A DNA stretch of 64,000 nucleotides, taken from Halichondria panicea. Lineage: Eukaryota > Porifera > Demospongiae > Suberitida > Halichondriidae. Positions 34,080 to 62,840 of the stretch are shown here, piece by piece. The stretch spans positions 5,090,169 through 5,154,168 of the forward strand of contig NC_087386.1 of the NCBI RefSeq assembly GCF_963675165.1, written 5' to 3'. The first letter of the stretch is position 1, and every line of letters starts with the position of its first letter. The translations under genes were made by a program, and so were the position numbers. A model generated the notes under the pieces. The model was not told the DNA's origin, did not search any database, and saw only the letters and a list, made by a program, of their open reading frames with translations.

Positions 34080-34478
34080 TTAGTGTAGACTGTAATATTT
34101 ACATACGCTGAAGGAATGAAGCAAAACTCGTCAGCTGAAAGTTGACACCAGTAAATTACCGCTTACGAATGATCAAAGAGTCCATTGATTGTTAAAAGTT
34201 GTTGAGTGTTAAAAGTGCACAATTTTCATACCTTCAGAGATATCCTGAACCACATATTCTGTACCACTTTATACTGTTTCTGTAAAATGTTTGTTACTAT
34301 CAAGTGGAGCAACACAACTTAGGACACCAGTTCCATCTAAATTGTGACACATGACAGTCACTGTTGTTGCCGGGTACTACGCGATATATACCAGTAACAG
34401 CATTGCTCTGAAGGAATGAGATCCAATAGCAAAGTGGGAACTATCCTGCTTTGTGCAGCTGCCATACTTATTTTTCCC
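34080..34478 (-). pseudogene. Ig-receptor relic with type B signal exon
   Basis: Minus strand: a type B signal exon remnant (ATGGCAGCTGCACAAAGCAGG), then a decayed Ig domain (CCNNNDYWCQLSADEFCF-like cysteine spacing, frame broken several times). No membrane or tail exon is joined. It lies downstream of the first complete array gene. Confidence 0.6.
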
Positions 34479-34748
34479 TTTTACAGCAATCGTTTATTTT
34501 GGCATACCGCTTTGAACTATAAGTCAACATTACAATTATGTACACACAAAACTCTAATTACCAGTGGGATCTTTTTTGTACTTGAAAGTTACAATATATC
34601 ACATGCAGTGAATTTTGGAGCACATACACAATAATTATATGCAGTTCAAAATTAACATTGCATGCATGTACCCAAATTAATGATGAATTCAAGTCTCTAT
34701 AATTTGCCCTCTACAAGGTTGATCAATTAGTCAGTGTATATCCACACT

Positions 34749-36745
34749 TCATGTACGAGCAGCTTCTTTTCTGTGCTCCAGTTTATCCTCTAACACTTTC
34801 GGTGCAGTAGGGAAGATATCGTATTGTGGGTCATCGAATACTCTCTCTTTCCCTTCCTCACTTCTCGATTGATCTAAGAGCTGTTCTTGGATTTTGATGT
34901 TTTGCTGACTGGGATCATTATAATTGAGTATACCATAAGCCGGAACAGTTGTGCTTGATTTGCGTTTAGGGATAGGTGGAGTCTGTTTCGGCTCGTTTGA
35001 AGTGATGGCGATGGTGGTACCGTTTGAAACAGCTTCCTCAAGAATATGATACTCACAGCTACCAGATGATTCATTTGCAAGTGTATTCTGTTGCTGAGAT
35101 GTCTTCACTACGCTGCCAAGATTTTCATATTGGTTGTCTTGAGATGTTTCTTCAACTGAGTTTCCCATCAATGTCAACTTGTGTGCATGTGTTCTGCTGT
35201 AGCGATGATCTTCCATGGAGTCCTCAGCTTTAATGGTGGCCTTTTGGCCTGGATTACTAACAAGGGAATGATCAAGAACATTGTATTGATTCTGAGATAA
35301 ACGGCTAGTGGAAAAGCTATCGAAAGAACATTGTGGTTGTTTTGACAGTTTATTATCACAAACATCTTCATAATATTGTGAGCTTTCAATTTGCAGTTGC
35401 TGTTTCGTATTGACAGCAGTTTTGTCTTTGTCTTGACCCACAGCCAAAATAATTTCATACGTGTGTGGTTCACCCTGATCTTCTTCTAGGTCAGTTGTTT
35501 GGAGGACATTGGTTTCTGCTTGATGCTCCAGCTCATTGTACTCATGCTCTACCATTTTATCACAGTCTGTAAGTGCTCTTTTACGATCACTGGCTGGCTC
35601 TTCAGTGGGTCGTGGGTTTTCCACATCTTCGTACTGGTGGACTTTCCTTCTTTTGAGACGCACAACTTGAGCATTATATCTATCTGAGGTATGATCCATT
35701 TCAGTTTGAGCAACACTTTGTACAACTGCAATGTATAAGAGAGATAATAATTATAATTATGCAAGATACTAAAGTTCCTAGTGACAAGGATTTTGGTCAA
35801 GATGGCCTAAGTAAATTAACAAGTTGTGGGTTCCCGCTACAAAAGGTCGTCTTACAACCACCTAGGACCACAACAATTACAACAAACAATGCTTCAATGA
35901 AGAAGCGTTACATGCATTCATCAGTGCTTCTCCTATTTCCATTCCAACCTTTTCTTCTAGTTTTCTTTCTCCAGCATATACAGATTCCAGCACAGCAGAT
36001 CAGAATGACCATCAGTATGAGTGTGAATCCCGCAGCTGGTACTGTCACTCCAAGACAGGCTACAAATCCTAAGTTTGTTAATTCTAGCTTACCACGACAT
36101 AGTTCTGGTTGAGTGGGTGTTGCTGGCGGAGTAGACACTGGTAGTGTGGTTGATGACACGGTATTTATTGAAGAGGTTGGTATTACTTGACAAGATGAAG
36201 AATTGTCTACTGCGCAAACTGGACTTTGCTGATAATTATATTCTGAATAACCAGAGCTTGTATTGACGGTAATATTCACATACGCTGATGGGATGAAGCA
36301 AAACCCGTCAGCTGAAAGTTGACACCAGTAAACACCACTGTCTGAGGAATTTATGTTATTAATAATTAGTTGATATCTGTCTTCAAAGAGTCCATTCATT
36401 GAAGTGTTAGACGAATTAAATTCATTTTTAGTTGACGTTTTAGAATTTTCATATCTATCAGTGACATTCTCGATCACAGATCCGTTGTTTCTGTACCATT
36501 TTACTGTTGCCAATGAATTGTTGCTACTATCGCGTGGAGCATATACTTCACATGTTAAGACAGCAGTTCCATTGTATGACACATGGCAGTCACTATAGTT
36601 GCGGGATACTTGCTTATACCAGTAACAGCATCGCTCTAGAATCAATTCAATGAATCAAATTTTGAACTACAATAATAATTATGTTACCTGAACAGTTCTG
36701 TCCCATTGAGGAGGGTACCAGTAGCACTAGCAGGAACAACAACAT
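34749..36745 (-). CDS. Ig receptor 1: type A signal, long tyrosine-rich tail
   Basis: Exons 36745-36688 (MLLFLLVLLVPSSMGQNCS), 36635-35949 (Ig, stalk, TM) and 35725-34749 (tail); 573 aa, all frames joined. Ig: ERCCYWYKQ, AVLTCEVYAP, ATVKWYR, SDSGVYWCQLSADGFCF; many N-glycosylation sites. TM about AAGFTLILMVILICCAGICIC followed by WRKKTRRK. Tail motifs: HQYEDV, HEYNEL, HTYEII, YYEDV, NQYNVL, NQYENL (Grb2-like YxN), CEYHIL, PAYGIL and PQYDIF. The C-terminus ends ...RKEAART because ~40 bp encoding the usual ...FDELTDV were deleted. If the last intron is retained, the protein ends 14 residues past the TM without tyrosines. Family: V-set-like Ig, role unknown. Confidence 0.85.
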
Positions 36746-36779
36746 TATATTACTCGCAGCTATAATAGTATCGGTCGAT

Positions 36780-38010
36780 CACTATGGCTCGACTTTAAGC
36801 AGTGAAGCAGTCTGTTAGTTTATTGTAAAGTCCATATAGCTAATGCAGTATACTGAAAGAAGCATTCCATATCCTGTTATATATATAACAGCATAGCTTA
36901 GTCAGAATAAACAGATTTTATTTCCTGTATAACATTAGGAAAACTTGCATCATATTGACATGCATACTCAAGGAAACTTGTGTGGTACATAGATCTACAT
37001 AGTGTGGTAGTAGAGACTGTTATTGAGTTTGCATGATTGTGCAAAACACAATTAGCTTACAAAGTACAGAATGTTTGCAAAACTGTTTGATGGGTATATG
37101 CAATTAATGGTACTGTTCAGTTTCAACATGCACAGGCATAAGCACTGTTACAGTAAACAAGTGGTGAGAACTATCCATTTCTGGTACACATACTTTAGGT
37201 GCAACAGCCACATAGTAATCTTTAACAGTCTGGCTTTTAAACTTCACTTGGTGACAGACTACACACATGCAGGGGGTGCTCTCACCACAGGGGAGCGTGT
37301 GTATTAATTGGACAGGGACAGGGACATAGCTTGCTCCCCCACACTCACGGGCACCCTCCCTCTAGATCACAAACGTATGTACAAAACAAGAGCAGCTTGG
37401 CACATTACGGTAAGCAACAAAGTCTCTACTGTTAAAATATCCATTTCTACCACAACGTTGTGATCCTTATAATAATCAGTATGCCAACTTTGTGACGTAG
37501 CTGATAACCAACTACAGATCATGTATAAAGACAGAGTTCAGAATAGTATGATAAGCAAAAGTGTTGCTGACAGCAACTTTTACTTAGTTTGCTTATTGTT
37601 TCATATTAATTATCACTGGTACAGTTTTGTACACTGTACTTCCTTATAAGGTCGCTTTGATTCATGTTCTTGCATGGATTAGACAACGGATACATTATTG
37701 ACAGAACATCGTACCCAGATTTGACACAGGGGGGTTCCATATCAGACTCACCAGGATCACTTACATGTATGATCGGTGCGATTATCATTTAGACTAGAAT
37801 GTACACTAGGACTGAAGTACTTCATTCAGGGGCTATTGATATTTCTTTTCTAGAAGCCATGACATTGTCAGATATCTCTACGTATGTACCTCGTGGTAAA
37901 CACACACAATAAGGCCTTCGGTACAAAATGATTGCTAAAGAGTATGGGAGTGTTGTAAATCTATAACTAAGTAGGAGTTCAATCGAACCACGGAACATGT
38001 ACACCTCCAA
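36780..38010 (-). repeat. Array spacer, with conserved short ORF after the short-tail gene
   Basis: Spacer between receptors 1 and 2. Near-identical DNA recurs at about 39.9-40.9, 46.1-47.5, 51.0-52.3, 53.2-54.0/57.5-57.96 and 62.9-64.0 kb, once per array unit. At 38010-37822 a minus-strand ORF reads RFTTLPYSLAIILYRRPYCV and ends KEISIAPE; it begins just after the short-tail stop and recurs in other units. Confidence 0.7.
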
Positions 38011-38021
38011 AAGTGTTTTTT

Positions 38022-39150
38022 TTAAAGTTCATTCGGTACACTATACACACTAATATAGTCCACTTTCGTTATGTCAATTGCCTCGTACGACTGTGTTTTG
38101 TTTTTGGCTGGGGTAGTAGCCAGGTTTGTTATTTGAGATGAATTTGGCAGAGAGTGGTAAGGATCCTCAACTGGTCCACCATCATTTGGATGTTCCGTCA
38201 ATATTGTAGCAGCTCCTTTATCTGCATGTGTAGACAGTGTGACATTGTATATATAGATAAGCATTGTATTAAAGCATGCAATGCAACATGTTATGTACAT
38301 TAATATTCAGGTATGTTAACATCTTATCCCGCGAGCTTACTTCTGCAAGTTTCACACTGGTTCTTCTTATCTCGTCTCGTCCAGGCCAATGCAAATATTG
38401 AAATAGTGACGAGTAGCATCACATGCAGCTAGCAGAACAATGATGAATGATAATGAACCAACCAACTCTTCAGTTGGTTGGTGATGTGGGATTTGAGGAG
38501 ACATTGATATCAGTGAACTAGTTAACAAAATGTTGGCCATAACTGTAGGAGTGGAATTGTTCACAAAAGGAGGAGTTGGTGTTACTTGACAGTATGGAGA
38601 ATTGTCTACTGCGCAAACTGGACTTTGCTGATAATTATATTCTAAACAACCAGAGCTTGTATTGAAAGTAATATTCACATACACTGATGGGATGAAGCAA
38701 AATCCGTCAGCTGAAAGTTGACACCAGTAAACACCACTGTCTGAAAAATTGACATTACGAATGATTAGTTGATATCTGTCTTCAAAGAGTCCATTCATTG
38801 AAGTGTTAGACGAATTAAATTCATTTTTAGTTGACGTTTTGGAATTTTCATTTCTATCAGTGACATTCTCGATCACAGATTCGTTGTTTCTGTACCATTT
38901 TACTGTTGCCAATGAATTGTTGCTACTATCACGTGGAGCATATACTTCACATGTTAAGACAGCAGTTCCATTGTATGACACATGGCAGTCACTATAGTTG
39001 CGCGATACTTGCTTATACCAGTAACAGCATTGCTCTAGAACCAATTCAATGAATTAAATTTTGAACTACAATAATAATTATGTTACCTGAACAGTTCTGT
39101 CCCATTGAGGAGGGTATACCAGTAGCACTAGCAAGAACAATAAAATTATT
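38022..39150 (-). pseudogene. Ig receptor 2: type A signal, short tail, broken
   Basis: Ig/TM exon 39034-38341 and tail exon 38221-38022; signal exon relic near 39147-39087. Ectodomain nearly identical to receptor 1 (CCYWYKQVSRNYSDCH). The signal exon has lost its ATG and gained a base. A 4-bp CATG insertion inside the TM segment (about 38424) shifts the frame after FIIVLLA. The tail is intact: DPYHSLPNSS, QSYEAIDI, VDYISVYSV, PNEL-stop. Confidence 0.75.
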
Positions 39151-39398
39151 TTACTCACAGCTATAATAGTATCGGTCGATCACTATGGCTCGACTTAAGC
39201 AGTGAAGCAGTCTGTTAGCTTTATCGTAAAGTCCATAATTATAGCTAATGTAGAACATACTGAAAGAACGCATTCCCTATATCCTGTTATATATTAAACA
39301 GGGTTATATAATAATTATAACGGCATAGCTTAGTCAGAATAAACAGCTTTTACTCCCTGTATAACATTAGAAAAACATGCATCACATTGACATGCATA

Positions 39399-39915
39399 CC
39401 GTATTTACTTGATTAAACGCCCTCCTTGAATAAACGCCCATCTCGTTTAAATGCCCAGGGTAAAAGCTCTGTCTTTGTCAATAAACGCCCATCTTAAATA
39501 ATCGCCCATATATGGGGTGTGGCACTGTGGGTGGAGCTGAAATAGCACATGGAACCCAGAGGAGGTACGACATCCGCGTGTCAAAGGAAACGTTTTTAGA
39601 CACACATTCCTTAGGTCAAAGTTCGGAATGTATGTGTTAAAGACATGCAGATGACGACACGCAGATGTCGTACCTCCTCTGCATGGAACCCAGTTGCAAG
39701 CATGGCAGAAGAATAATAATACTTTTTATGATGCATCGATGGCAGAGAGAGAGATACCGACACAGAGGGCACTCCTGTGACTTAAATTTAAGCTGAGAAA
39801 TAGATTTAAGCTGAGACAGCAGCCCAAGAAGAGCACAATAACTGCTGCTGTGCAAGAGTTTTGGAGTAGACATAACAATAAACGCCCTCCTGAATTAAAC
39901 GCCCCCTCTAAAGAC
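39399..39915. mobile_element. TAAACGCCC-type element in array spacer
   Basis: Left end CCGTATTTACTTGATTAAAC, GCCCTCCTTGAATAAACGCCC; right end carries AATAAACGCCCTCC and TTAAACGCCCCC in direct orientation. It replaces spacer sequence present in other units. Superfamily uncertain; the 125-bp MULE-like MITE is nested in it. Confidence 0.45.
39557..39681. mobile_element. MULE-like miniature element, 125 bp
   Basis: TIR CAGAGGAGGTACGACATC and inverse; 9-bp duplication CATGGAACC (39548-39556, 39682-39690). Same TIR family as 14732-14866. Confidence 0.8.
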
Positions 39916-40948
39916 TTCGATTGAGTTTGCATGATTGTGCAAAACACAATTAGCTTACAAAGTACAGAATGCATGTTTGCAAAACTGTTTGATGGGTATA
40001 TGCAATTAATGGTACTGTTTCAGTTTCAACATGCACAGGCATAAGCACTGTTACAGTAAACAAGTGGTGAGAACTATCCATTTCTGGTACACATACTTTA
40101 GGCGCAACGTACAGCCACATAGTAATCTTTAACAGTCTGGCTTTTAAACTTCACTTTGTGGATCCAGCTGATGACAGACTATATATACATGCAGGGGGTG
40201 CTCTCATCACAGGGGGGTATGAGGATTAATTGTACAGGGACAGGAACATAGCTTGCTCCCCCACACACTCACACGGGCACCCTCCCTCTAGCCTCTAGAT
40301 CACAGATATAAAACTAGAGCTTGGCACATTACGGTAAGCAACAAAGTCTCTACTGTTAAAATATCATTTATACCACAACGTTGTGATCCTTATAATAATC
40401 AGTATGCCAACTTTGTGACGTAGCTGATGACCGACTACAGATCATGTATAAAGACAGAGTTCCGAAAGCAAAGAATAGTACGATAAGCAAAAAGTGTCGC
40501 TATTACACTGACAGCAACTTTTACTTAGTTTTCTTATTGTTTCGTAATAATTATCACTGGTACAGTTTTGTACACTGTACATTTTCTATAAGTATAATTA
40601 AGGTTGTGTTCTTGCATGGATTATGACAACAGATACATTATTGACAAAACATCGTTCCCAAGTTTTGACACAAGGGGGTTCCATATCGGACTCACCATGA
40701 TCACTTACATGCATGATCAGTGCGATCATCATTTAGACTAGAATGTACACTAGGACTAAAGTACTTCATTCAGGTGCTATTGATATTTCTTTTCTAGAAG
40801 CCATGACATTGTCAGATATCTCTACGTATGTACCTCGTGGTAAACACACACAATAAGGCCTTCGGTACAAAATGATTGCTAAAGAGTATGGGAGTGTTGT
40901 AAATCTAACTAAGTAGGAGAGTTCCCCGAATCCCTCCAAATGTGTTTT

Positions 40949-42120
40949 TTAAAGTTCATTCGGTACACTATACACACTAATATAGTCCACTTTCGCTATG
41001 TCAATTGCCTCGTACGACTGTGTTTTGTTTTTGGCTGAGGTAGTAGTCAGGTTTGTTACTTGAGATGAATTTGGCAGAGAGTAGTAAGGATCTTCTACTG
41101 GTCCACCATCATTTGGATGTTCCGTCAATATTGTAGCAGCTCCTTTACCTGTATGTGTAGACAAGCATGACATTGTATAGAAAAGCATTGTATTAAAACA
41201 TGCAATGCAACGTGTTATACTTCAGGTATGTCCCACGAGCTTACTTCTGCAAGTTTCACACTGGTTCTTCTTATCTCGTCTCATCCAGGCCAATGCAAAT
41301 ATTGAAATAGTGATAAGTAGCGTCACAGCTAGCAGAGCAATAATAAATGATAGGGAACCAACCAACACTGAAGAGTTGGTTGGTGATGTCGGGATTCGAG
41401 GAATGGCTACAGGAGACATTGATATCAGTGAACTAGTTAACGAAATGTTGGTCATAACTGTAGGAGTGAAATCGTGGACTAAAAAAGAAGTTGGTGTTAC
41501 TTGATGACAAGATGAAGAATTGTTTACTGCGCAAACTGGACTCCATTGATAACTAAAGCTTGAACAACCATTTTTATTCAAGCTTGAATTGACAGTGATA
41601 TTCACATATGCTGATGGGATGAAGCAAAACCCGCCAGCTGAGATTTGACACCTGTAAATACCACTGTCTGAAGAATTGATGTTACCAATGGTTAGTTTAT
41701 AATTGTTTTGAAAAAGTCCATCAATTGGAGTGTTAGGAGAATTAAATGCAATTTCGGTGAACATCACAGAATTTTCATATCTATCAGAGATATCCTCGAC
41801 CACAGATTGAATGATTCTGTACCACTTCACTGTTGCGTTGTTACTATCACGTGGAGCATATACTCCACATGTTAAAGCAGCTGTTCCACCTTCTGACACA
41901 TGACAGTCACTGTTGTTGCCGGGTACTCTCTGATACCAGTAACAACATCGCTCTGAATGAATAATCCAATGGCAAAATGAAATGAGTAGCTCTATATCTA
42001 GCTTATGATAAAATAATAGCAAAACTCACCTGAGCAGTTTTGAGCAAGAGTGCATTGAAACAGAGCTAGTCCTATAAAAACTAGCAGCTGCCAAACTATC
42101 CTGCTTCGTCCAGCTGCCAT
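40949..42120 (-). CDS. Ig receptor 3: type B signal, short ITIM-like tail, intact
   Basis: Exons 42120-42030 (MAAGRSRIVWQ...QNCS), 41952-41245 (Ig, stalk, TM) and 41148-40949 (tail); 332 aa in one frame. Ig: ERCCYWYQR, AALTCGVYAP, ATVKWYR, SDSGIYRCQISAGGFCF. TM SVLVGSLSFIIALLAVTLL onward, then WMRRDKK. Tail: DPYYSLPNSS, QSYEAIDI and VDYISVYSVPNEL; VDYISV fits the ITIM consensus (I/V/L/S)xYxx(I/V/L). Start chosen because ATG opens a clean signal peptide. An inhibitory role is inferred from the motif only. Confidence 0.85.
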
Positions 42121-42509: not shown

Positions 42510-43674
42510 AGTGTGTATCCACACTTCATGTACGTCTGTCAGCTCATCAAAAGGGAATGTCTCAATCGGAGAAACTTCTCTTCTGTGCTTCGGTTCATCC
42601 TCTAAAACTAACAGTGCAGTAGGGAGAATATCATAATTATTGTGGGTCATCTCTTTCCCTTCCAATTCTCGATTGATATAACCAGGAGCCCATAAAGAGA
42701 AGGAGCGGCTAACTACGGGGATCACATCTCGTAATTGGTTATGACCGCATTTCCATATATGCAGGGTCACTAAGTGGTTGAATCCCTACACGTGTTTTAC
42801 GCAATGCAGGGATGCGGTTTGTAAGCACTTAGTCACTTCCATACAAGGAAGTGCGGTTTCACCGGCAATTACGAGATGTGATCCCCGAGTGTACGTTGAA
42901 GTTAGCCGCTCCTTCTCTTTATGGGCTCCTGATATAACTGAGAGCTGTTCTTAGATTTAGATTTCTTGCTGGCTGGAATTGTTATAAGAGTACACCATAA
43001 GCCCAACAGTTGTGTTTGGCTTGCGTCTAAGGATAGGTAGAGTCTGTTCTGGCTGGTTTGAAGTGGTGGGGATGGTGGTACCGTTTGAAACAGCTTCCTC
43101 AAGAACATGTGCTAACCTGTGATAACAACAAGACGGAATGGTTACTGCGCAAACTGGACTCCGCTGATAGAACATTCATCTACATGTACATTCATGCTTG
43201 TATAAGTAATATTCACATACGCCGATGGGATGAAGCAAAACCCGTCAGCTGAAAGTTGACACCAGTAATTAAATTACCACTGTCTGAAGAATTGATGATA
43301 CGAATGGTTAGTTTACAAAGAGTTCATTGATTGTAGTGCTAAAAAAATGCAATTTGGGCGAACGTATAGAATTTTCATACCTTCAGAGATATTCTCGACC
43401 ACAGATTCGATGATTCTGTACCACTTTACTGTTGCTTTTTTGAATTGTTGTGACTATCACGTGGAGCAAATACTCCACATGTTAAAACAGCAGTACCACC
43501 TTCTGACACATGACAGTCACTGTTGTTGCCAGGTACTCTCTGATACCAGTAACAGCATCGCTCTGAATGAATGATTAGCTTTAGCTTATTACATATTTCA
43601 CCTGGCAGTTCTGAGCAGAGATAATTATTATAAAGACTGCATGCCAAACTCATCCTGCTCCGTGCAGCTGCCAT
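42510..43674 (-). pseudogene. Ig receptor 4: type B signal, long tail, TM deleted
   Basis: Signal exon at 43674-43603 (MAAARSRMSLACS), a broken Ig exon with RCCYWYQRVPGNNSDC, then stalk QRSPVCAV fused directly to tail sequence AHVLEEAVSNGTTIPTTSNQ. The membrane segment and first half of the tail are absent. The tail is interrupted by a 248-bp element. The same fusion occurs in the copy at 59.6-60.5 kb, so the deletion predates the block duplication. Confidence 0.75.
42683..42930. mobile_element. hAT-like MITE, 248 bp, in receptor 4 tail
   Basis: TIR AGGAGCCCATAAAGAGAAGG and inverse, about 30 bp; 8-bp duplication GATATAAC (42675-42682, 42931-42938). The paralogue at about 59785 has the unoccupied GATTGATATAACTGAGAGC. 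Confidence 0.85.
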
Positions 43675-43966: not shown

Positions 43967-46057
43967 TTAGTCATTGTGTATCCACACTTCATGTACGTCT
44001 GTCAGCTCATCAAAAGGAAATGTCTGAATCTGAGTAGCTTCTCTTCTGTGCTCCGCTTCATCTTCTAACACTTTCGGTGCAGTAGGGAGAATATTGTATT
44101 GTGGATCATCGAATACCCTCTCTTTGCTTTCCTCAATTATTGATTGATGTAAGGGCTGATCTTGGATTTTGATGTTTTGCTGGCTGGAATCATTGTAATT
44201 GAGTACACCATAAGCTGGAACAGTTGTGTTTGATTTGTGTTTAGGGATAGGTGGAGTCTGTTCTGGCTGGTTTGAAGTGGTGGGGATGGTGGTACCGTTT
44301 GAAACAGCTTCCTCCAGAACATGATACTCACATGTACAGCTACCAGATGATTCATTTGCAAGTGTATTCTGTCGCTGAGCTGACTTTACTACTCTGCTGC
44401 CAAGATTTTCATATTGGTTGTCTTGAGATGTTTCTTCGACAGAGTTTCCCATCAATGTCAACGTGTGTGCATGTGTTCTGCTGTAGCGATGATCTTCCAT
44501 GGAGTCCTCGCTAGTAATAGCTTTAATGGTGGCCTTTTGTCCTGGATTAGTGACAAGAGAGTGATCAAGAACGTTGTATTGATTCTGGGATGAACAGCTA
44601 GTGGAAAAGCTATCGAAAGAACTTTGTGGTTGTTTTGGCAGTTTATTATCACAAACATCTTCATAATATTGTAGGCTTTCAATTTGCAGTTGCTGTTTCG
44701 TATTGACAGCAGTTTTGTCTTTGTCTTGACTCACAGCCAAAACCATTTCATACATGTGTGGTTCACCCTGATCTCCTTCTAGGTTTATTTTTTGGAGGGC
44801 ATTGGTTTCTGCTTGATGCTCCAGCTCACTGTACTCATCATCTACCATTTTATCACCATCTGTATGTGTTCTTTCACGATCACTAACTGGCTCTTCAGTG
44901 TGTTCATCAGGTCGTGGGTTTTCCACGTCTTCGTACTGGTGGACTTTTCTTCTTTTGAGACGCACAACTTGAGCATTAGATCTATCTGAGGTATGATCCA
45001 TTTCAGTCTGAGCCACACTCTGTGCAACTGCAAATATAAAAGTGAAATACTTAAAAACAAAATGTGTATTATGCTACAGTTCCTAGTGACAGGGATTGTA
45101 GGGCTACGTTAATTTAACAAGTTGTGGGTTCCCGCTACAAAACGTCGTCTAATACAAGCACTTAAGACCACAAAAATGAGATCAACAATGTGCTTTTATA
45201 AAGGTGCTTCTCCAAATCCATTCACCTTTTCTTTTAGTTTTCTTTCTCCAGCATATACAGATTCCAGCACAGCAGATCAGAATGACCATCAGTATGAGTG
45301 TGAATCCTGCAGCTGGTACCATCACTCCAAGACAGGCTACAAATCCTAAGTTTGCTACATTTAGAGCACCACGACATAGTTCTAGTTGAGTGGTTGTTGT
45401 TGACGAAGTAAGACTAGTCATAACAGGAAATATTGACGTTACAGTTGATGATATGGTCTGTAGTGAAAGGGTTGGTGTAACTTGACAAGATGACGGATTG
45501 TTTAGTGCGCAAACTGGACTCTGCTGATATTTAACACTTGAACAACCATTTCCATTCAAGCTTGTATTGACAGTAATATTCACATACGCTGATGGGATGA
45601 AGCAATTCCCGTTAGCTGAGAGATGACACCAGTAAACACCACTGTCTGATAAATTAATGCTATGAATGATTAGTTGATATCTGTCTTGAAAGAGTCCATT
45701 GATTGGAGAGTTAGAAGAATCAAATGCAAGTCGGGCGGATATAATAGAATAAATCAATTTTCATACCTATCAGAGATATCCTCGACCACAGATTCACTTC
45801 TGTACCATTTTACTGTTGCCAGTAAAGTGTTATTACTATCATGTGGAGCGTATACTCCACATGTTAAGACAGCTGTACCATCTTCTGACACATGACAGTC
45901 ACTGTTGTTGCCAGGTACTGTCTGATACCAGTAACAGCATTGTTCTGTAACCAAAATTCAATGATTTACTTTTGTAGTCAAACCATAAAATAATGTTACC
46001 TGAACAGTTCTGTCCCATTGATGAGGGTACCAGTAGCACTAGCAGGAACAACAACAT
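43967..46057 (-). pseudogene. Ig receptor 5: type A signal, long tail, one frame break
   Basis: Exons 46057-46000, 45944-45226 and 45027-43967. Signal, TM and the full tail are intact, ending ELTDVHEVWIHND. In the Ig exon, 8 bp extra relative to receptor 10 after DISDRYE (about 45755) give an immediate TGA. Without them the gene would be in frame throughout. Tail tyrosines as in receptor 1 plus CEYHVL and PQYNIL. The last intron again reads open for a short tyrosine-free end (GEWIWRSTFIKAHC). This could be a very recent pseudogene. Confidence 0.75.
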
Positions 46058-46074
46058 TTTTTTACTTACAGCTA

Positions 46075-47469: not shown

Positions 47470-47832
47470 TCATTTGGTACACTATACACACTAATAATAG
47501 TCCACTTTCGTTATGTCAATTGCCTCGTACGACTGTGTTTTGTTCTTGGCTGGGGTAGTAGTAGTCAGGTTTGTTACTTGAGATGAATTTGGCAGAGAGT
47601 AGTAAGGATCCTCAACTGGTCCACCATCATTTGAACGTTCCGTCAATATTGTAGCAGCTCCTTTATCTGCATGTGTAGATAAGCATGACATTGTATATAG
47701 AAAAGCATTGTAACATGTATGATAATGTCTTATCCCACGAGGGCTTACTTTTGCAAGTGTCACACTGGTTCTTCTTATCTCGTCTCATCCAGGCCAATGC
47801 AAAGATGGCAATTATAGTGATGAGTAGTGCAT
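47470..47832 (-). pseudogene. Receptor 6 relic: TM end plus short tail
   Basis: Only the inner end of the TM exon (IIAIFALAWMRRDKK) and the tail exon remain; the Ig domain and signal exon are gone and spacer DNA abuts the TM at 47832. The tail has extra bases in VDYISV, giving VDYY-stop, so the ITIM-like core is lost. Confidence 0.75.
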
Positions 47833-47958
47833 CATAATTATTGACATGCATACTCAAAACATTCAAGGAAACTTGCGTGGTTGGTACATAGATCTACATA
47901 GTGCAGTAATAAAGACTGTTATTGAGTTTGCATGATATATTGTGCAAAACACATTTAA

Positions 47959-51000: not shown

Positions 51001-51009
51001 TATATTATT

Positions 51010-52280
51010 CGCAGCTATAATAGTATCGGTCGATCACTATGGCTCGACTTTAAGCAGTGAAGCAGTCTGTTAGTTTATTGTAAAGTCCATATTATAGCTA
51101 ATGCGGTATACTGAAAGAAGCATTCCATATCCTGTTATATAACAGCATAGCTTAGTCAGAATAAACAGATTTTATTCCCTGTATAAACATGCATCATATT
51201 GACATGCATACTCAAGGAAACTTGCGTGGTACATAGATCTACATAGTGTAGTAGTAGAGACTGTTATTGAGTTTGCATGATTGTGCAAAACACAATTAGC
51301 TTACAAAGTACAGAATGTTTGCAAAACTGTTTGATGGGTATATGCAATGGTACTGTTTCAGTTTCAACATGCACAGGCATAAGCACTGTTACAGTAAACA
51401 AGTGGTGAGAACTATCCATTTCTGGCACACATACTTTAGGTGCAACAGCCACATAGTAATCTTTAACAGTCTGGCTTTTAAACTTCACTTTGTGGATCCA
51501 GCTGGTGAAAGACTATATACATGTAGGGGGTGCTCTCATCACAGGGGAGTGTGTGTATTAATTGGACTAGGACATAGCTTGCTCCCCACACTCACGGGCA
51601 TCCTCCCTCTAGATCACTAACGTATGTATAAAACTAGAGCAGCTTGGCACATTACGGTAAGCAACAAAGTCTCTACTGTTAAAATATCCATTTCTACCAC
51701 AACGTTGTGATCCTTATAATAATCAGTATGCCAACTTTGTGACGTAGCTGATGACCGACTACAGATCACGTATAAAGACAGAGTTCAGAATAGTATGATA
51801 AGCAAAAAGTGTTGCTATTACACTGACAGCAACTTTTACTTAGTTTGCTTATTGTTTCATATTAATTATCACTGGTACAGTTTTGTATACTGTACTTCCT
51901 TATAAGGTCGTTTTGATTCATGTTCTTGCATGGATTAGACAACGGATACATTATTGACAGAACATCGTACCCAGATATTTGACACAGGGGGGTTCCATAT
52001 CAGACTCACCAGGATCACTTACATGTATGATCGGTGCGATTATCATTTAGACTAGAATGTACACTAGGACTGAAGTACTTCATTCAGGGGCTATTGATAT
52101 TTCTTTTCTAGAAGCCATGACATTGTCAGATATCTCTACGTATGTACCTCGTGGTAAACACACACAATAAGGCCTTCGGTACAAAATGATTGCTAAAGAG
52201 TATGGGAGTGTTGTAAATCTATAACTAAGTAGGGGTTAAATCGAACCACGGAACATGTACACCTCCAAAAGTGTTTTTTT
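51010..52280. repeat. Array spacer
   Basis: Spacer between receptors 7 and 8, close to the 36.8-38.0 kb spacer, including the downstream ORF segment near 52080-52230. No other gene seen. Confidence 0.65.
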
Positions 52281-53151
52281 AAGTTTATTCGGTACACTAT
52301 ACACACTAATATAGTCCACTTTCGCTATGTCAATTGCCTCGTACGACTGTGTTTTGTTTTTGGCTGAAGTAAGTAGCCAGGTTTGTTATTTGAGATGAAT
52401 TTGGCAGAGAGTAGTAAGGATCCTCTACTGGTCCATCTCGTCTTGTCCTGGCCAATGCAAATATTGAAATAGAAATGATAGTGAACCAACCAACTCTTTA
52501 GTTGGTTGGTGATGTGGGATTTGAGGAGACATTGATATCAGTAAAATGTTGGCCATAACTGTAGGAGTGGATATTCACAAAAGGAGGAGTTGGTGTTACT
52601 TGACAAAATGAAGAATTGTCTACTGCGCAAACTGGACTTTGCTGATAATTAAATTCTAAATAACCAGAGCTTGTATTGAAAGTAATATTCACATACGCTG
52701 ATGGGATGAAGCAAAACCTGTCAGCTGAAAGTTGACACCAGTAAACACCACTGTCTGAAGAATTGACATTACGAATGATTAGTTGATATCTGTCTTCAAA
52801 GAGTCCATTCATTGAAGTGTTAGACGAATTTAATTCATTTTTAGTTGACGTTTTAGAATTTTCATATCGACATTCTTGAGCACAGATTTGTTGTTTCTGT
52901 ACCATTTTACTGTTGCCAATGAATTGTTGCTACTATCACGTGGAGCATATACTTCACATGTTAAGACAGCAGTTCCATTGTGTGACACATGGCAGTCACT
53001 ATAGTTGCCGGGTACTTGCTTATACCAGTAACAGCATCGCTCTAGAATCAATTCAATGAATCAAATTTTGAACTACAACAATAATTATGTTACCTGAACA
53101 GTTCTGTCCCATTGAGGAGGGTACCAGTAGCACTAGCAAGAACAACAACAT
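52280..53151 (-). pseudogene. Ig receptor 8: type A signal, short tail, broken
   Basis: Signal exon 53151-53094 intact. The Ig exon, from 53036, loses about 7 bp in the ENVTDRYEN segment (near 52873), shifting frame. The TM coding part is mostly deleted and joined to the tail exon without an intron (about 52432-52440). Tail begins DPYYSLPNSS and is then frameshifted. Confidence 0.7.
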
Positions 53152-53169
53152 TATATTACTCGCAGCTAT

Positions 53170-54387: not shown

Positions 54388-55633
54388 ACAGTGCAACAAC
54401 CAAAGAGAGTAGATTTTTTTTTATATTATTTTTTTTCACATTTTGTGGCATATCTTCTGAAGTAAAAGTGATATGATCTATTTGAGTGCAGGTACTGAAA
54501 GTTCAATTATTGGCGCTTCCATTGGACCACCACCTGTTACATCATATGACATCATCACTATGAAATGGCTGTCTGAAGATGTGTACCTCCGAAAATATGT
54601 TAGGAATAGAAGTAGCTTATTTGTTTGAGTTAAGATCTGAAATTTATTGTGTATGTACCTGACTATATTGCTCATCTTTTGAGCTTCAACAGAAGTCTGG
54701 GCTGCTAGTAAGTTCTGAGAAATACTGAATTTTGTTGTTTTTTGGTGGCAAATATGTTAGGAATACAACTTTCGATTTTATGCTAGTTAAGGTCTGATTT
54801 TTGAGGAGCATGTACTACAATAGCATAGAATTCATCTGTACTAACTTACAGGAGCTAGACAAGTCTCATCTTTGCTAGAGCGGCCCTTCTTGTCAAAAAT
54901 GGTGATTTTGCTCCGTTTTGCTACTTTTGCTGACGTATGCAATGATATTCATTGATTTGTGACATCACAAATCATCCTGTTGTTATTTGCTACATCCAAA
55001 GGTCATGCGATGTCTACCTGCAAATACACAGTTGGTGTTGGTCATTCTGTGTCACAGGGGCGTGGTAATTGAGCTTACTACGTAGCCAAATCGCCCCAAA
55101 AGTCATAAAAAGTACTGTTTTTGACAAGATGGGCCGCTCTAGCAAAGAAGAGGCTAGCCTAACTCCTGTAAGTTAGTACAGATGAAAAGTACACTATTGT
55201 AGTACATGCTGCTCAAAAATCAGACCTTAACTAATATAAAATCGAAAGTTGTATTCCTAACATATTTGCCACCAAAAAACAACAAAATGCAGTATTTCTC
55301 AGAACTTACTAGTAGCCCAGACTTCCCTTGAAGCTCAAAAGATGAGCAATATACTCAGGTACATACACAACAAATTTCAGATCTTAACTCAAACAAATAA
55401 GCTACTTCTATTCCTAACATATTTTCAGAAGTACACATCTTCAGACAGCCATTTTATACTGATGATGTCATGTGATGTAACAGGTGGTGGTCCAATGGAA
55501 GCGCCAATAGTTGAACTTTCAGTACCTGCACTCAAATAGATCATATCACTTTTACTTTAGAAGATATGCCACAAAATGTAAAAAATGTGTACCAAAAAAA
55601 AAAATCTACTCTCTTTGGTTGTTGCACTATAGC
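54388..55633. mobile_element. Foldback element with ~480-bp arms
   Basis: Ends AGTGCAACAACCAAAGAGAG and inverse. Arms span about 54388-54900 and 55120-55633, so most of the element is palindromic. Each arm has a 65-codon open stretch ending GGGPMEAPIxELSVPALK; being in both arms it is probably not an independent gene. Confidence 0.75.
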
Positions 55634-55847
55634 TAGCAGTAGCCATTGATCTCTTTGGACACACCCTTTAATCATTCCTATGGATGTAATGCGCATGCGC
55701 GCTCAATCCCCACGTGTGAGAAATAATATCCAAGATCCAGATCCAGATCCTCCTGGCAGAATCATCTTTGTCTTGAAGGCCTGGTAAGCCACAAAACACT
55801 ACCATATAACAATATACTAATCAGATAACAATAATTATGCATGTACA

Positions 55848-57283
55848 CAGGTAGGGTTTCCACATGAAAATTAAAAGTCAACAAATGAGGCTCAAATTTT
55901 TGTTGCACACTACACTACATGAAAGTATAATGGTTGCACCTTCAAATCCAAAATTTCGCTACTCTTATTCTAGCAATGGTGCTCTTTATTTCACAACATT
56001 TCTCTCAAAGGTCAAAGCCAAAGGTCATTGTGATCTCTAATAAAATGTGATTTTCAAACTGTGGATGAAAGCTATGACTCTCCTTTTGCTTTGCATCCAT
56101 TCCTATACTAACTAGTAGTGTGTGGATCACCCCAAACTGGAGAAAGGATTCTCACAGGTGAGTATTTTTATGGTTAGCAGCACATAGTACCACTAGTAAG
56201 TCAAACATTGTGACGATTTACCGAATGCCGTTGAAATTGCTAGTTCCTCATGTGATTGTCAGAAAGTACCAAGCCTAAATAGTCCATGTATCAAATAACA
56301 GACAAAATGCTAATTTTTTACCAACTGGCTGGAGTGCTTTTTATTTTTATTAGTGTTTGCATCCCATAAATGTACCCCCATTGTCTCATTGAGCATGGTA
56401 GACGCTTCATATAGATGCCGCATTGTAGTAGAATGATCACAAGTGATGGTGAAGAAATACAATGATTATACACCACTATCTACATTCAGGTGCGAAGCAG
56501 AAGGTTTCGAGGTATCATCCTACAGTGTCAAGATCAATCTACCTGCTCAACAATACAACACAGTAATACAGCATAAAGTGTGTCTATTCTTCCGAAAACA
56601 AAGTCAGAACTGGATCACCTAGCTATTAAAATACTGTTGGAGCAGGAATTTAGGATTAAATTATTTCACGTTTGTGTTCCGATTTCATGGTATTTCAATT
56701 AAAAATACAAGAATGAATACTGGTACTAACTACTTTACATACAAAAAGAAGTAAAATCTTATTTTGATATTGTTTAAAGAGTGTTGTATCATTGAGCAGG
56801 TAGATCGATCTTGACACTGTATGATGATACCTCGAGACCTTCTGCTTTGCACCTGAATGTAGACAGTGGTATATGATCATTGTATTTCTTCACCATCACT
56901 TGTTATCATTCTACTACAATGTGGCATCTATATGAAGCGTCTACCATACTCAATGAGACAATGGGGGTACATTTATGGGATGCAAACATTAATAAAAATA
57001 AAAAGCACTCCAGCCTGTTGGTAAAAAATTAGCATTTTGTCTGTTAATTGATACATGGACTACTTAGGCTTAGTACTTTCTGAAAATCACATGAGGAACT
57101 AACAATTTCAACGGCATTATCGGTAAATCGTCACAATGTTTGACCTACTAGTGGTACTATGTGCTGCTACCTATAAAAATACTCACCTGTGAGAATCTTT
57201 TCTCCAGTTTGGGGTGATCCACACTCAGGCTCATTCGTTGACTTTCATTTTTCATTGTGGAAACCCTAACACAGGTCTTTTCT
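55848..57283. mobile_element. Second foldback element, ~430-bp inner arms
   Basis: Outer inverted ends GGTAGGGTTTCCACATGAAA and inverse; inner arms at about 56120-56560 and 56785-57225 (GATCACCCCAAACTGGAGAA). AGATCC...CTRGTAAGCCACA is directly repeated outside both ends (about 55740-55800, 57312-57365). Confidence 0.7.
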
Positions 57284-57969
57284 TCTTAGATATTATATAC
57301 ACTGAACTACAGATCCTGGAAGAATCAATTTTCTTCTTTCTTGAGATCCTAGTAAGCCACATAATACAACAATAGATGCATATAAATAAGTCTTTTCTTC
57401 TCAGTGACTTTATATAGATAAGCTAACTTTAATATAAAATTCATTATAGAAACTAATATAACACTCTAATACTTTTCAGCGAAAGCAAAACCATGGCGAG
57501 AGGCATTAGCACAGCGCCAGCTTGAACACTAGTTTGCTTATTGTTTCATATTAATTATCACTGGTACAGTTTTGTACACTGTACTTCCTTATATAAGGTC
57601 GTTTTGATTCATGTTCTTGCTGCATGGATTAGACAACGGATACATTATTGACAGAACATCGTACCCAGATTTGACACAGGGGGGTTCCATATCGGACTCA
57701 CCAGGATCACTTACATGTATGATCGGTGCGATTATCATTTAGACTAGAATGTACACTAGGACTGAAGTACTTCATTCAGGTGCTATTGATATTTCTTTTC
57801 TAGAAGCCATGACATTGTCAGATATCTCTACGTATGTACCTCGTGGTAAACACACACAATAAGGCCTTCGGTACAAAATGATTGCTAAAGAGCATGGGAG
57901 TGTTGTAAATCTATAACTAAGTAGGAGTTCAATCGAACCACGGAACATGTACACCTCCAAAAGTGTTTT

Positions 57970-59164
57970 TTAAAGTTCATTCGGTACACTATACACACTA
58001 ATGTAGTCCACTTTCGTTATGTCAATTGCCTCGTACGACTGTGTTTTGTTTTTGGTTGGGGTAGTAGTAGTCAGGTTTGCTCCTTGAGATGAAGATGGCA
58101 GAGAGTAGTAAGGATCCTCTACTGGTCCACCATCATTTAGATGTTCCGCTAATATTGTAGCAGCTCCTTTATCTGCATGTGTAGATAAGCATGACATTGT
58201 ATAGATAAGCTAAAACATGCAATGCAACATGTTATGTACATTAATATTCAGGTATGTTAATGTCTTATCCCGCGAGCTTATACTTCTGTAAGTTTCACAC
58301 TGGTTCTTCTTATCTCGTCTCATCCAGGCCAATGCAAAGATGACAATAGTGATGAGTAGTGTCACAGCTAGCAGAGCAATGATAAATGATAGTGAACCAA
58401 CCAACACTGAAGAGTTGGTTGGTGATGATGTCGGGATTCGAGGAATGGCTACTGGAGATATTAAACTAGTTAACGCAATGTTGGCCATAACTGTAGGAGT
58501 GGAATTGTTCACCAAAAAGGGAGGAGTTGGTGTAACTTGACAAGATGACGGGTTGTTTAGTGCGCAAACTGGACTCCGCATATAATTAACACTTGAACAA
58601 CCATTTCCATTCAAGCTTGTATTGACAGTAATATTCACATATGCTGATGGCATTAAGCAAAACCTGTCAGCTGAGAGATGACACCAGTAAACACCACTGT
58701 CTGAGGAATTGATGCTGCGAATAATTAGTTTATAATTATCTCAAAAGAGTCCATTGATTGGAGAATTAACTGCAATTGTGGCGAGCGTCATAGAATTTTC
58801 ATACTTATCAGAGATATCCTCGACCACAGATTCACTTCTGTACCATATTACTGTTGCCAGTAAAGTGTTATTACTATCACATGGAGCGTATACTACACAT
58901 GTTAAGACAGCTGTACCACCTTCTGACACATAACAGTCACTGTTGTTGCCAGGTACTCTCTGATATCAGTAACAGCATTGCTCTGCATGAATGATCCAAT
59001 GGCAAAAGTGAAATGATTAGCTCTAGCTTATTTGATTATATAGCATAATTTATCATGATAGCAAACTCACCTGAGCAGTTCTGAGCTAGATTGTATTGAA
59101 ACAGAGCTAATCCTATAAAGACTAGCAGCTGTTGCCAAACTATCCTGCTTCGTGCAGCTGTCAT
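57970..59164 (-). pseudogene. Ig receptor 9: type B signal, short tail, two nonsense codons
   Basis: Exons 59164-59071, 58982-58284 and 58172-57970; frame holds end to end, matching receptor 3. Two single-base changes stop it: TGG to TGA in CCY-W-YQR (about 58965) and CGA to TGA in GLF-R-DNY (about 58743). Tail intact: DPYYSLPSSS, QSYEAIDI, VDYISVYSVPNEL. The donor after the TM reads GTATAAG. Recent inactivation is likely. Confidence 0.8.
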
Positions 59165-59609
59165 ACTCTTTTATTCTGTGAAGTGATAAGTAGATTTACA
59201 TATACTACACGTACCTTTTACGGCAATTGCTTATCAAAATGTTGACTTATTCAATGTGGTATGCAAAACGGAACTGTATATAAGCCTTATACAGTCCCGT
59301 TTTAAGTCAACATTGGAGTGTTGATACAACACAAACAAATCACTTAAATTAAGTAGTTTATACATGGACAGGGTGGTCCACCACAGACTAAAGTGCATAT
59401 AGGGGCTCATACACAATGATTTGCAATGTTTTTTTAACTACAAAAATAGTTATGAGAGAGGTAGGTGGTTACAGAACATGTATGTATTCAGAATAATGTC
59501 GTGTATTAAATAAGTCGTGTATTTGCTACGAGTTAAAACAATTGCATATAACAAACAGCGTAATTTCAAATCTCTCTATTACAGACAATACAATGTGTCT
59601 GTAAAGATT

Positions 59610-60526
59610 GATAAATTAGTCAGTGTGTATCCACACTTCATGTACGTCTGTCAGCTCATCAAAAGGGAATGTCTCAATCGGAGAAACTTTCCTTCTGTGC
59701 TCCGGTTCATCCTCTAAAACTTTCAGTGCAGTAGGGAGAATATCATATTGTGGGTCATCTTTTTCCCTTCCTCAATTCTCGATTGATATAACTGAGAGCT
59801 GTTCTTAGATTTAGATTTCTTGCTGGCTGGAATTGTTATAAGAGTACACCATAAGCCCGAACAGTTGTGTTTGGCTTGCGTTTAGGGATATCATAGGTGG
59901 AGTCTGTTCTGGCTGGTTTGAAGTGGTGGGGATGGTGGTACCGTTTGAAACAGCTTCCTCAAGAACATGTGCTAACCTGTGATAAGAACAAGACGGAATG
60001 ATTACTGCGCAAACTGGACTCCGCTGATAGAATATATTCATGTACATGTACATTCATGCTTGTATCAAGTAATATTCACATACGCTGATGGGATGAAGCA
60101 AAACCCGTCAGCTGAAAGTTGACACCAGTAAATTACCACTGTCTGAAGAATTGATGATACTAGTTTACAAAGAGTTCATTGATTGTAGTGCTAAAAAAGT
60201 GCAATTTGGGCGAACGTATAGAATTTTCATACCTTCAGAGATATTCTCGACCACAGATTCGATGATTCTGTATCACTTTACTGTTGCTTTTTTGAATTGT
60301 TGTGACTATCACGTGGAGCAACTACTCCACATGTTAAAACAGCAGTACCACCTTCTGACACACGACAGTCACTGTTGTTGCCAGGTACTCTCTGATACCA
60401 GTAACAGCATCACTCTGAATGAATGATTAGCTTTAGCTTATTACATATTTCACCTGGCAGTTCTGAGCAGAGATAATTATTATAAAGACTGCATGCCAAA
60501 CTCATCCTGCTCCGTGCAGCTGCCAT
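59610..60526 (-). pseudogene. TM-less long-tail copy, sister of receptor 4
   Basis: Signal exon 60526-60454 (MAAARSRMSLACS), broken Ig, then QRSPVCAVIIPSC fused to AHVLEEAVSNGTTIPTTSNQ and a decayed tail end near 59620-59780. Lacks the MITE found in receptor 4. Confidence 0.75.
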
Positions 60527-60811
60527 AGTTCTCAGTGCAAATGATAAGTATAATCCCTCTTACACATTGTTTATTTTTGAATACCGCTTTGAAGTGTGTA
60601 AGTCAACATTGTATAATGTGGCTATGTACACACAAAAACTCTGCACGGATCTTTTTTGCACTCGAAAGTTACAATTACATGCATGCAGTGACAGAGAAAG
60701 CTGTCTTAATCCACTATTCATGCTACACAATACATTATACACACAATTATTGTTGCATGTAACAAACGGTGTCTCTATTTGCAACATTGTATACAAGGGT
60801 TGCATGATCAA

Positions 60812-62840
60812 TTAGTCAGTGTGTATCCACACTTCATGTACGTCTGTCAGCTCATAAAAAGGAAATGTCTGAATCTGAGTAGCTTCTCTTCTGTGCTCCG
60901 CTTCATCTTCTAACACTTTCGGTGCAGTAGGGAGAATATTGTATTGTGGGTCATCGAATACCCTCTCTTTGCTTTCCTCAATTATTGATTGATGTAAGGG
61001 CTGATCTTGGATTTTGATGTTTTGCTGGCTGGAATCATTGTAATTGAGTACACCATAAGCTGGAACAGATTTGTGTTTAGGGATAGGTGGAGTCTGTTCT
61101 GTCTGGTTTGAAGTGGTGGGGAAGGTGGTACCGCTTGAAACAGCTTCCTCCAGAACATGATACTCACAGCTATCAGATGATTCATTTGCCAGTGTATTCT
61201 GTCGCTGAGCTGACTTTACTACTCTGCTGCCAAGATTTTCATATTGGTTGCCTTGAGATGTTTCTTCGACAGAGTTTCTCATCAATGTCAACGTGTGTGC
61301 ATGTGTTCTGCTGTAGCAATGATCCTCTGTGGAGCCCTCGCTGGTAACAGCTTTAATGGTGTCAGCATTGCTAACAAGAGAGTGATCAAGAACATTGTAT
61401 TGATTCTGGGATGAACGGCTAGTGGAAAAGCTATTGAGTGGTTGTTTTGACAGTTTATTATCACAAACATCTTCATAGTATTGTGAGCTTTCAATTTGCA
61501 GCTGCTGTTTCGTATTGACAGCGGTTTTGTCTTTGTCTTGACTCACAGCCAAAACCGTTTCATACGTGTGTGGTTCGCCCTGATCTCCTTCTAGGTCAGT
61601 TGTTTGGAGGGCATTGGTTTTTTCTTGATGCTCCAGCTCATTGTACTCATGATCTAGTGTTCTTTCACGATTACTGACTGGCTCTTCAGCAGTATGTTCA
61701 TCAGGTCGTGGGTTTTCCACGTCTTCGTACTGGTGGGCTTTCCTTCTTTTGAGACCCACAACTTGAGCATTAGATCTATCTGAGGTATGATCCATTTCAG
61801 TTTGAGCCACATACTGCACAGCTGCAATGTAAGAGTGAATTATAAAAAAAGTGTATAATTATTATGCTACAGTTCCTAGTGACAGGGATTGTGTGGTGCT
61901 AAGTTAATTAATTTTAACAAGTTGTGGGTTCCCGCTACAAAAGGTAGTTTTACAAGCACCTAAGACCACAACAATGAGATCAACAATGTGCTTTTATAAA
62001 GGTGCTTCTCCAAATCCATTCACCTTTTTTTTTAGTTTTCTTTCTCCAGCATATACAGATTCCAGCACAGCAGATCAGAATGATCATCAGTATGAGTGTG
62101 AACCCTCCAGCTGGCACCGTCACTCCAAGACAGGCTGCAAATCCTAAGTTTGTTACATTTAACTCACCACGACATAGTTCTAGTTGAGTGGGTGTTGCTG
62201 ACGGAGTCATAACAGGAGATATTGGCGTTACGATTGATGACATGGTCTGTAGTGAAGGAGTTGGTGTAACTTGACAAGACGAAGAATTGTCTACTACTGC
62301 GCAAACTGGACTCCGTTGATAATTAACACTTGAACAACCATTTCCATTCAAGCTTGTATTGACAGTAATATTCACATATGCTGATGGGATGAAGCAAAAC
62401 CCGTCAGCTGAGATTTGACAAAAGTAAATACCACTGTTTGAAGAATTGATGCCATGAATAGTTAGTACATAATTGTCTCGAAAGAGTCCATTGATTGGAG
62501 AGTTAGAAGAACTAAGTGCAATTTGGGCGTACATCATAGAACTTTCATACCTATCAGAGATATCCTCGACTATAGATTCAATAATTCTGTACCACTTTAA
62601 TGTCGCCATTGAATTGTTGTTACTATCACGTGGAGCATATACTTCACATTTTAAGACAGCAGTACCACCTTCTGACACATAACAGTCACTGTTGTTGCCG
62701 GGTACTGTCTGATACCAGTAACAGCATCGCTCTGTAACCAAAACTCAATGCATTACTTTTGTAGTCTAACAATAAATGTTACCTGAACAGTTCTGTCCCA
62801 TTGATGAGGGTACAAGTAGCACTAGCAGGAACAACAACAT
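60812..62840 (-). CDS. Ig receptor 10: type A signal, long tyrosine-rich tail, intact
   Basis: Exons 62840-62783 (MLLFLLVLLVPSSMGQNCS), 62731-62024 (Ig, stalk, TM) and 61821-60812 (tail); 591 aa, phase 1 at both introns. Ig: ERCCYWYQT, AVLKCEVYAP, ATLKWYR, NSGIYFCQISADGFCF. TM within GGFTLILMIILICCAGICIC, then WRKKTKKK. Tail: HQYEDV, HEYNEL, HTYETV, YYEDV, NQYNVL, NQYENL, CEYHVL, PAYGVL, PQYNIL and terminal ELTDVHEVWIHTD. No ITAM spacing is strict; the motif density suggests an SH2 scaffold. Retention of the last intron would give a short tyrosine-free end. Best full-length reference for the long type. Confidence 0.87.

Follow-up and report, generated by a model that had tools for sequence, protein, structure and literature searches.

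A clustered family of single-Ig membrane receptors with two alternative tyrosine-motif tails in the sponge Halichondria panicea

Vertebrate paired receptors combine conserved extracellular domains with different signalling back ends and are encoded in small clusters on one chromosome. The members give opposite signals and overlap in their expression on immune cells; the inhibitory members carry an immunoreceptor tyrosine-based inhibitory motif (ITIM), and their activating members have a short tail and an Arg or Lys residue in the transmembrane domain (PMC3533184; this and the other sources cited here are represented by part of their contents). Teleost NILT genes are clustered and encode type I membrane proteins with one or two V-type immunoglobulin (Ig) domains on phase-1 exons (Ig identity 77-96%), with ITIM-bearing members as well as members bearing an immunoreceptor tyrosine-based activation motif (ITAM), and with the Ig domain, connecting peptide and transmembrane part in separate exons (PMC3022915). 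The Alr genes of Hydractinia are clustered single-pass Ig-superfamily genes with low mutual identity and many presumed pseudogenes (PMC11067881), for which ITIM/ITAM motifs have been reported (PMC12065747). Botryllus FcoR is an Ig-superfamily receptor family with a V-type Ig domain, a sushi domain and two C2 Ig domains, and with tails that contain an ITIM, a hemITAM or the core motif Y-x-x-I/L/V (PMC12065747). The sponge Ig-superfamily molecules known from the sources consulted are adhesion molecules and TIR-Ig receptors (PMC11999971, PMC8242945). According to a 2025 review, no conservation is seen among the proteins put forward for allorecognition in sponges, cnidarians and ascidians, and ITAM/ITIM signalling is a point of convergence between the cnidarian and the ascidian system (PMC12065747). 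Here we describe a tandem cluster of single-Ig receptor genes with two kinds of tyrosine-motif tail from the sponge Halichondria panicea, first noticed in a stretch of 64,000 nucleotides (C10:5090169-5154168, hereafter the window) of an assembly of 131 Mb and 39 contigs. The initial annotation of this stretch knew of no comparable sponge locus, and none was found in the open-access literature searched, which is a part of the literature.

A 72-nt Ig motif (family D8) occurs 11 times within 34,092-62,436 of the window and every unit lies on the minus strand, in agreement with the initial count of about eleven related single-Ig receptors or relics on one strand. The interval 34080..62840 holds 11 Ig-bearing units or relics as well as one Ig-less, tail-only relic (unit F). 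Each gene has three coding exons, which encode the signal peptide, the V-type Ig domain together with stalk and transmembrane span, and the whole tail; the introns of the intact units are in phase 1 with GT-AG borders. Splice models yield five intact genes, namely the long-tailed A, K, and Z and the short-tailed I and X, with Z and X outside the window. The Pfam V-set score exceeds the cut-off in K and I and lies just above it in A, and Pfam scans of A, I, and K returned one Ig domain and no sushi domain. The predicted products are type I membrane receptors with a single V-type Ig domain. Assignment to one particular Ig family was dropped, because the structure models were of modest confidence, their best matches mixed V- and I-type domains, and the profile search of solved structures gave weak matches only (NCAM2, MXRA8, otk, and a B-cell receptor alpha chain).

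The relationship between ectodomain and back end was analysed with 11 units (Z, X, A, C, D, E, G, I, J, K, and Q), leaving out the relics B, H, L, M, R, S, and Y and the tail-only units, by aligning the 5' region, the Ig region (columns 278-760) and the transmembrane region. In the Ig region, mean DNA identity is nearly the same for long-long (86.0%, 15 pairs), short-short (84.8%, 10 pairs) and long-short comparisons (85.9%, 30 pairs). The corresponding values are 90.4%, 91.3%, and 49.7% in the transmembrane part, and 75.8%, 66.6%, and 61.7% in the 5' region. When five units were relabelled 'short' in 462 ways, the observed grouping was reached by 198 of the 462 relabellings in the Ig region, by one, the observed grouping itself, in the transmembrane part, and by an intermediate 27 in the 5' region, a test which assumes exchangeable units though the units have common descent. 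Since Ig identity is blind to tail type whereas the transmembrane part splits by type, these comparisons show one family of predicted ectodomains mounted on two unrelated transmembrane/tail modules. The earlier proposal of a shared ectodomain with alternative signalling tails is upheld by stronger evidence than was available to it, while the description of the ectodomains as near-identical holds within each of two Ig clades (95-97% and 85-94% DNA identity) and fails between them (79-83%).

Individual units also point to how this arrangement arose. Units J and D have a long-type front (90-100% identical to K per 100-column window) and turn short-type within the stalk, with a sliding identity of 79-98% to I or X in the back part (D has gaps). 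Units X, C, and I combine an Ig part common to the long units with a signal exon, transmembrane part and back end of their own. From the mosaic fronts and this shared Ig part, we conclude that ectodomains have been exchanged between the predicted modules more than once. Three protein searches returned 33 database sequences (P0001-P0007 and P0009-P0034; P0008 is a translation made in the analysis). The tails of 20 non-reference sequences were subjected to typing, with P0017 remaining untyped, and among the 19 typable ones P0010, P0012, P0013, and P0015, as well as P0020 in a near tie, have their nearest reference ectodomain in a unit of the other type.

The units follow one another from high to low coordinate in the order A to L, with M outside the interval (window coordinates, all on the minus strand):

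62840-62783 (signal exon) and 62731-62024 (Ig, stalk and transmembrane exon), minus strand: unit A, long, intact, 591 amino acids; spliced model with GT-AG phase-1 introns; V-set E 9.7e-6
60812..61821, minus strand: long tail exon of unit A, with nine YxxPhi motifs and PPIP
59616..60415, minus strand: unit B, long-type relic with degenerate Ig and tail end; exon-piece search
57970..59164, minus strand: unit C, short, two stops in the Ig exon; exon-piece search and spliced model
52236..53151, minus strand: unit D, short tail with long-type front, frameshifted; exon-piece search, spliced model and sliding identity
49096..51001, minus strand: unit E, long, reading frame disrupted in the signal exon and again close to the end of the tail; exon-piece search and spliced model
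47491..47887, minus strand: unit F, orphan short-type transmembrane and tail relic, no Ig; exon-piece search
43967..46057, minus strand: unit G, long, frameshift in the Ig; matches RefSeq LOC135342654 isoform X3
42570..43563, minus strand: unit H, long-type relic; exon-piece search and profile scan
42120-42030 (signal exon) and 41952-41245 (Ig, stalk and transmembrane exon), minus strand: unit I, short, intact, 332 amino acids; spliced model; V-set E 1.6e-8
40949..41148, minus strand: short tail exon of unit I, with DPYYSLP and YEAI-x6-YISV (VDYISV)
38022..39145, minus strand: unit J, short tail with long-type front, lacking the start codon and with a disrupted frame; the change from long to short type falls in the stalk
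36745-36688 (signal exon) and 36635-35949 (Ig, stalk and transmembrane exon), minus strand: unit K, long, intact, 573 amino acids; spliced model; V-set E 3.6e-8
34749..35725, minus strand: long tail exon of unit K, with nine YxxPhi motifs and TPPIPKRKS
34061..34431, minus strand: unit L, Ig relic; exon-piece search and profile scan
4361..7828, minus strand: unit M, outside the interval, with a long-tail fragment (7828-7703), then a broken Ig (6748-6296), a short-type transmembrane part (6206-6054) and a short tail (4558-4361); exon-piece search

Splice models run intact through three of the 12 units in the interval (A, I, and K). Stops, frameshifts or loss of the start disrupt C, D, E, G, and J, and B, H, and L persist as relics. 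For unit G, the protein search returned the RefSeq entry 'uncharacterized protein LOC135342654 isoform X3 [Halichondria panicea]', and query residues 65-417 are 100% identical between G and P0001. The limits of 34080 to 62840 originally given to the array proved too narrow, as unit M lies at 7828-4361 and more units were found on either side: the cluster extends over about 122 kb (C10:5038448-5160482) and overruns the window at both ends. Local scans of 184 kb recovered two more intact genes above the window, Z (long, 596 amino acids) and X (short, 334 amino acids), and further broken or divergent units flanking the window on both sides. The order long, relic-long, short recurs in Z-Y-X, A-B-C, and G-H-I, and this recurrence points to duplication of three-unit blocks. 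Whole-genome matches to the Ig (27), the short tail (11), the long tail (11) and the divergent long tail (five) all fall on the minus strand of C10:5038448-5160482, and none of these four queries revealed a second locus in the 131-Mb assembly at E <= 0.001. A distant match at C6:3057551-3058030 was set aside; the open frame that contains it would encode a single-Ig membrane protein of different appearance.

Several other elements were recorded on the way. To the left of the array lie protein kinase domains and ankyrin repeats (window 16020-17099, 22405-22977, and 20484-20894, all minus strand), and an open frame at 28935-29831 on the plus strand would encode a single-pass membrane protein whose short tail contains YDDV and YRKI and which has no Pfam family above cut-off. 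Between C and D, near-identical inverted open frames (54478-54756 minus and 55261-55539 plus; 56318-56479 minus and 56863-57024 plus) possibly belong to a fold-back mobile element. Elsewhere in the genome, regular arrays of I-set Ig exons, many with equal scores, were seen at C1:6.38-6.44 Mb and C5:1.99-2.08 Mb.

The two tails differ in more than length. The long tail comprises 323-352 residues in K, A, and G, in line with the roughly 320-350 residues and many YxxL/I/V motifs first described, although these motifs number eight in K and nine in A rather than ten. The K tail contains 13 tyrosines and the A tail 14, each with nine YxxPhi motifs, while shuffled long tails gave a mean of 2.5 and none of 5000 reached nine. 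The long tail also has one copy of YENL, which we take to be a possible Grb2-type site, and PPIP, presumably an SH3-type site. The short tail of about 65 residues with VDYISV is present as described and carries the motifs YYSL, YEAI, and YISV. VDYISV, kept in nine of the 12 minus-strand short tails (one is cut short, and two read VNYNSM), matches the ITIM consensus, and YEAI-x6-YISV has near-ITAM spacing with V replacing the last L/I; judged by the usual consensus forms of the two motifs, a motif scan found no strict ITAM in either tail. Because VDYISV fits an ITIM and the YEAI-x6-YISV spacing comes near to an ITAM, the short tail may be of either sign, ITIM-like or ITAM-like.

Divergent copies extend the comparison beyond the core array. 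Three long multi-tyrosine tails with an upstream transmembrane stretch lie in C10:5038448-5080771 (window -48336..-49748, about -9100..-10506, and -50165..-51720). The divergent long tail U is 21% identical to the K tail. In U, U2, and U3 taken together, 16 of the 37 cells aligned to a K tyrosine still hold tyrosine, compared with retention in 174 of 756 cells for other residues. Local scans found no Ig exon near U, U2, or U3, and these Ig-less long tails may represent membrane adaptors or remnants. Two divergent short-type transmembrane and tail copies were detected on the plus strand (window 63888-64569, most of which lies past the window end, and 71417-72306, which lies past it entirely), with YVQM or YMQM as the second motif (YEAI-x6-YVQM/YMQM), and the profile scan of 184 kb found no Ig on that strand.

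Taken by its predicted structure, this is a real sponge paired-receptor-like locus, and we lean, with some reserve, towards paired-receptor logic as its functional reading. On this reading, tandem copies have exchanged ectodomains between the modules through gene conversion or by crossing over unequally, and a cell with both kinds of receptor would read one ligand set through two outputs. Src-type kinases would phosphorylate the tails; a tandem-SH2 protein might then dock on the short tail, with VDYISV as the site for an SHP-like phosphatase or YEAI-x6-YISV as that for a Syk-like kinase, and the long tail could act as a many-site SH2 docking platform with YENL and PPIP. The balance of the outputs would set the response to non-self contact, be it microbial or allogeneic. 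Candidate partners are encoded in the genome as domain matches in genes that are predicted only: SH2, SH2, and phosphatase exons follow in this order on C3 (8406287 to 8404573), and two SH2 exons are followed by two tyrosine-kinase exons on C9 (5259157 to 5255365). As a separate observation, C4 contains a very large expansion of tyrosine phosphatase exons with interspersed Ig exons (about 0.04-2.6 Mb), and of the 176 genome-wide matches to PF00102, most of those listed are on C4. In its fullest form, the proposal is that a polymorphic pool of V-type ectodomains, held in common via copy exchange, feeds two tyrosine tails of opposite sign without adaptors, the whole forming a self/non-self complex; we offer this version tentatively, as one that is probably wrong in some part.

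A number of observations weigh against paired signalling. The transmembrane spans of K and I contain no D, E, K, R, or H, and for this reason the scheme of KIR and LILR, an ITIM receptor opposed to an adaptor-coupled one, does not apply here. The long tails of K and A lack a strict ITIM or ITAM. When the short tail is shuffled, an ITIM match arises in 1235 of 5000 cases for I and 1077 of 5000 for X; given this chance rate and the near-ITAM spacing, VDYISV is a consensus match whose inhibitory polarity is putative. In U, U2, and U3, proline is also kept (18 of 39 cells), and since U2 and U3 are near-duplicates (97.5% DNA identity over 1.8 kb), the conservation cells are not independent. The first SH2 match on C3 is partial with a stop inside, only five intact genes were seen, and the Ig-region ratio of nonsynonymous to synonymous substitution rates (dN/dS) is 0.66 among the seven units whose Ig frame can be read. 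In a tandem array, moreover, conversion can maintain similar Ig exons even if the receptors are not paired in function.

Allorecognition as the purpose of the cluster appears doubtful to us, though it could coexist with paired signalling, as an alloreceptor could itself be paired. By analogy with Alr in Hydractinia and with fester/FcoR, thought to act so in Botryllus, the cluster would decide between fusion and rejection when tissues come into contact, through ectodomains that recognise one another or a polymorphic self ligand; as an explanation of the whole locus we consider this possible, on the unlikely side. One clustered locus with many broken copies resembles the Alr complex as far as described in the source (PMC11067881). 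The available sequences, with same-size contigs taken as one contig, bear on it from both directions. P0004, P0005, P0009, P0022, P0026, and P0032 from a 147,124-base contig match units Z, A, X, J, G, and D at 100% identity. On a 1,155,512-base contig, which we read as another haplotype, P0002 corresponds to unit Q with an identical tail, beside P0003, P0024, P0027, P0028, P0029, and P0033, which are 70-93% identical to their nearest unit. Sequences on contigs of 860-9,911 bases mostly diverge more, the exception of P0030 (99.4% to unit Q) speaking against an alloreceptor, and P0034 (293,495-base contig), which reaches no more than 38-39% identity to any reference unit, is regarded as a probable relative belonging to a different species or haplotype. 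Compared with the reference units, three of 20 ectodomain cores (P0009, P0022, and P0026) are 98-99% identical, four 88-97%, and 13 at most 82%, some of these percentages being rough because of overlapping alignment pieces. The predicted ectodomains thus vary strongly among the available sequences, but the short homologous contigs may derive from other individuals or even other species, and such variation could equally serve microbe recognition.

Selection gives a similarly divided picture. The most variable stretch is residues 63-73, predicted to form a strand, with a mean entropy of 1.61 bits compared with 0.25-1.00 bits in other segments (0.38 in the FG loop and 0.68 in the BC loop; 25 sequences, many partial). 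Strong positive selection across the whole Ig domain was rejected given the overall dN/dS of 0.66, with 20-codon windows reaching 1.02 and 1.19 at 61-90; the corresponding values are 0.51 for the long tail and 0.66 for the short tail (five units each). Within the patch 63-73, where estimates rest on few sites, the ratio of nonsynonymous to synonymous differences per site (pN/pS) is 0.97 over all pairs; the Z/A/I/X clade shows a pN of 0.277 with a pS of 0.000, which favours an alloreceptor and is suggestive of local diversifying selection, whereas pN (0.359) is smaller than pS (0.487) between clades.

Somewhat less probable still is that the two receptor classes share a ligand and both signal positively, for adhesion or cell-type recognition, with tails that are docking platforms of different size and no antagonism. 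The missing strict ITIM and ITAM of the long tail, a short tail that could be ITAM-like through YEAI-x6-YISV, and the divergent plus-strand copies with YEAI-x6-YMQM, outside any ITIM consensus, would all suit such an arrangement; the retention of VDYISV in most minus-strand short tails and the SHP-like exon order in the genome argue against it. A mostly decaying array of little present function, with Ig similarity as a neutral by-product of unequal crossing over or conversion, would explain the small share of intact units in the interval and the recurrence of the frame breaks of G, J, and D in P0026, P0022, and P0032 (147,124-base contig, maybe from the same individual), but is improbable in view of the tail dN/dS ratios, the tyrosine motifs kept across diverged tails, three long and two short genes with full splice sites and frames, and the RefSeq isoform X3 named for one locus.

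Returning to paired-receptor logic, the cluster resembles KIR, LILR, and PILR in its clustered genes, similar ectodomains and two kinds of back end, and PILR also has one Ig domain according to the source (PMC3533184). It differs in that K and I lack a charged transmembrane residue and that both tail kinds carry tyrosine motifs of their own; because the charged-transmembrane partner is absent, we place it outside the vertebrate scheme. In the profile search, no match was named as a vertebrate protein and most were without a name; likewise, none of the 27 matches at E <= 1 in the protein/profile search was named Alr, most being unnamed, in a search that reaches only relatives with common short exact words. 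If the reading is true, paired Ig-receptor logic is placed in Porifera, the convergence on ITAM/ITIM signalling extends to a third early branch, and the long tail provides a multi-site output unlike the vertebrate pairs compared here. Two self-sufficient tails would constitute a different solution to pairing from adaptor coupling, and a single mappable locus is at hand for testing sponge allorecognition or microbe recognition. With NILT, as described in the consulted part of its source, the cluster shares the V-type Ig, type I membrane topology, clustered genes and phase-1 Ig exons, whereas the sponge Ig, stalk and transmembrane span occupy one exon and the whole tail another. Like Alr, it consists of clustered Ig-superfamily membrane genes with many broken copies in an early-branching animal; unlike Alr, of low mutual identity in the source, its Ig regions are 79-97% identical in DNA. 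FcoR, too, is an Ig receptor family with tyrosine-motif tails, from which A, I, and K differ by domain content as far as FcoR is described there, having one Ig and no sushi domain. The sponge Ig molecules compared likewise place Ig domains in membrane proteins, and among those treated in the consulted parts of the sources (PMC11999971, PMC8242945) a tandem array with alternative short and long tyrosine tails sets the Halichondria cluster apart.

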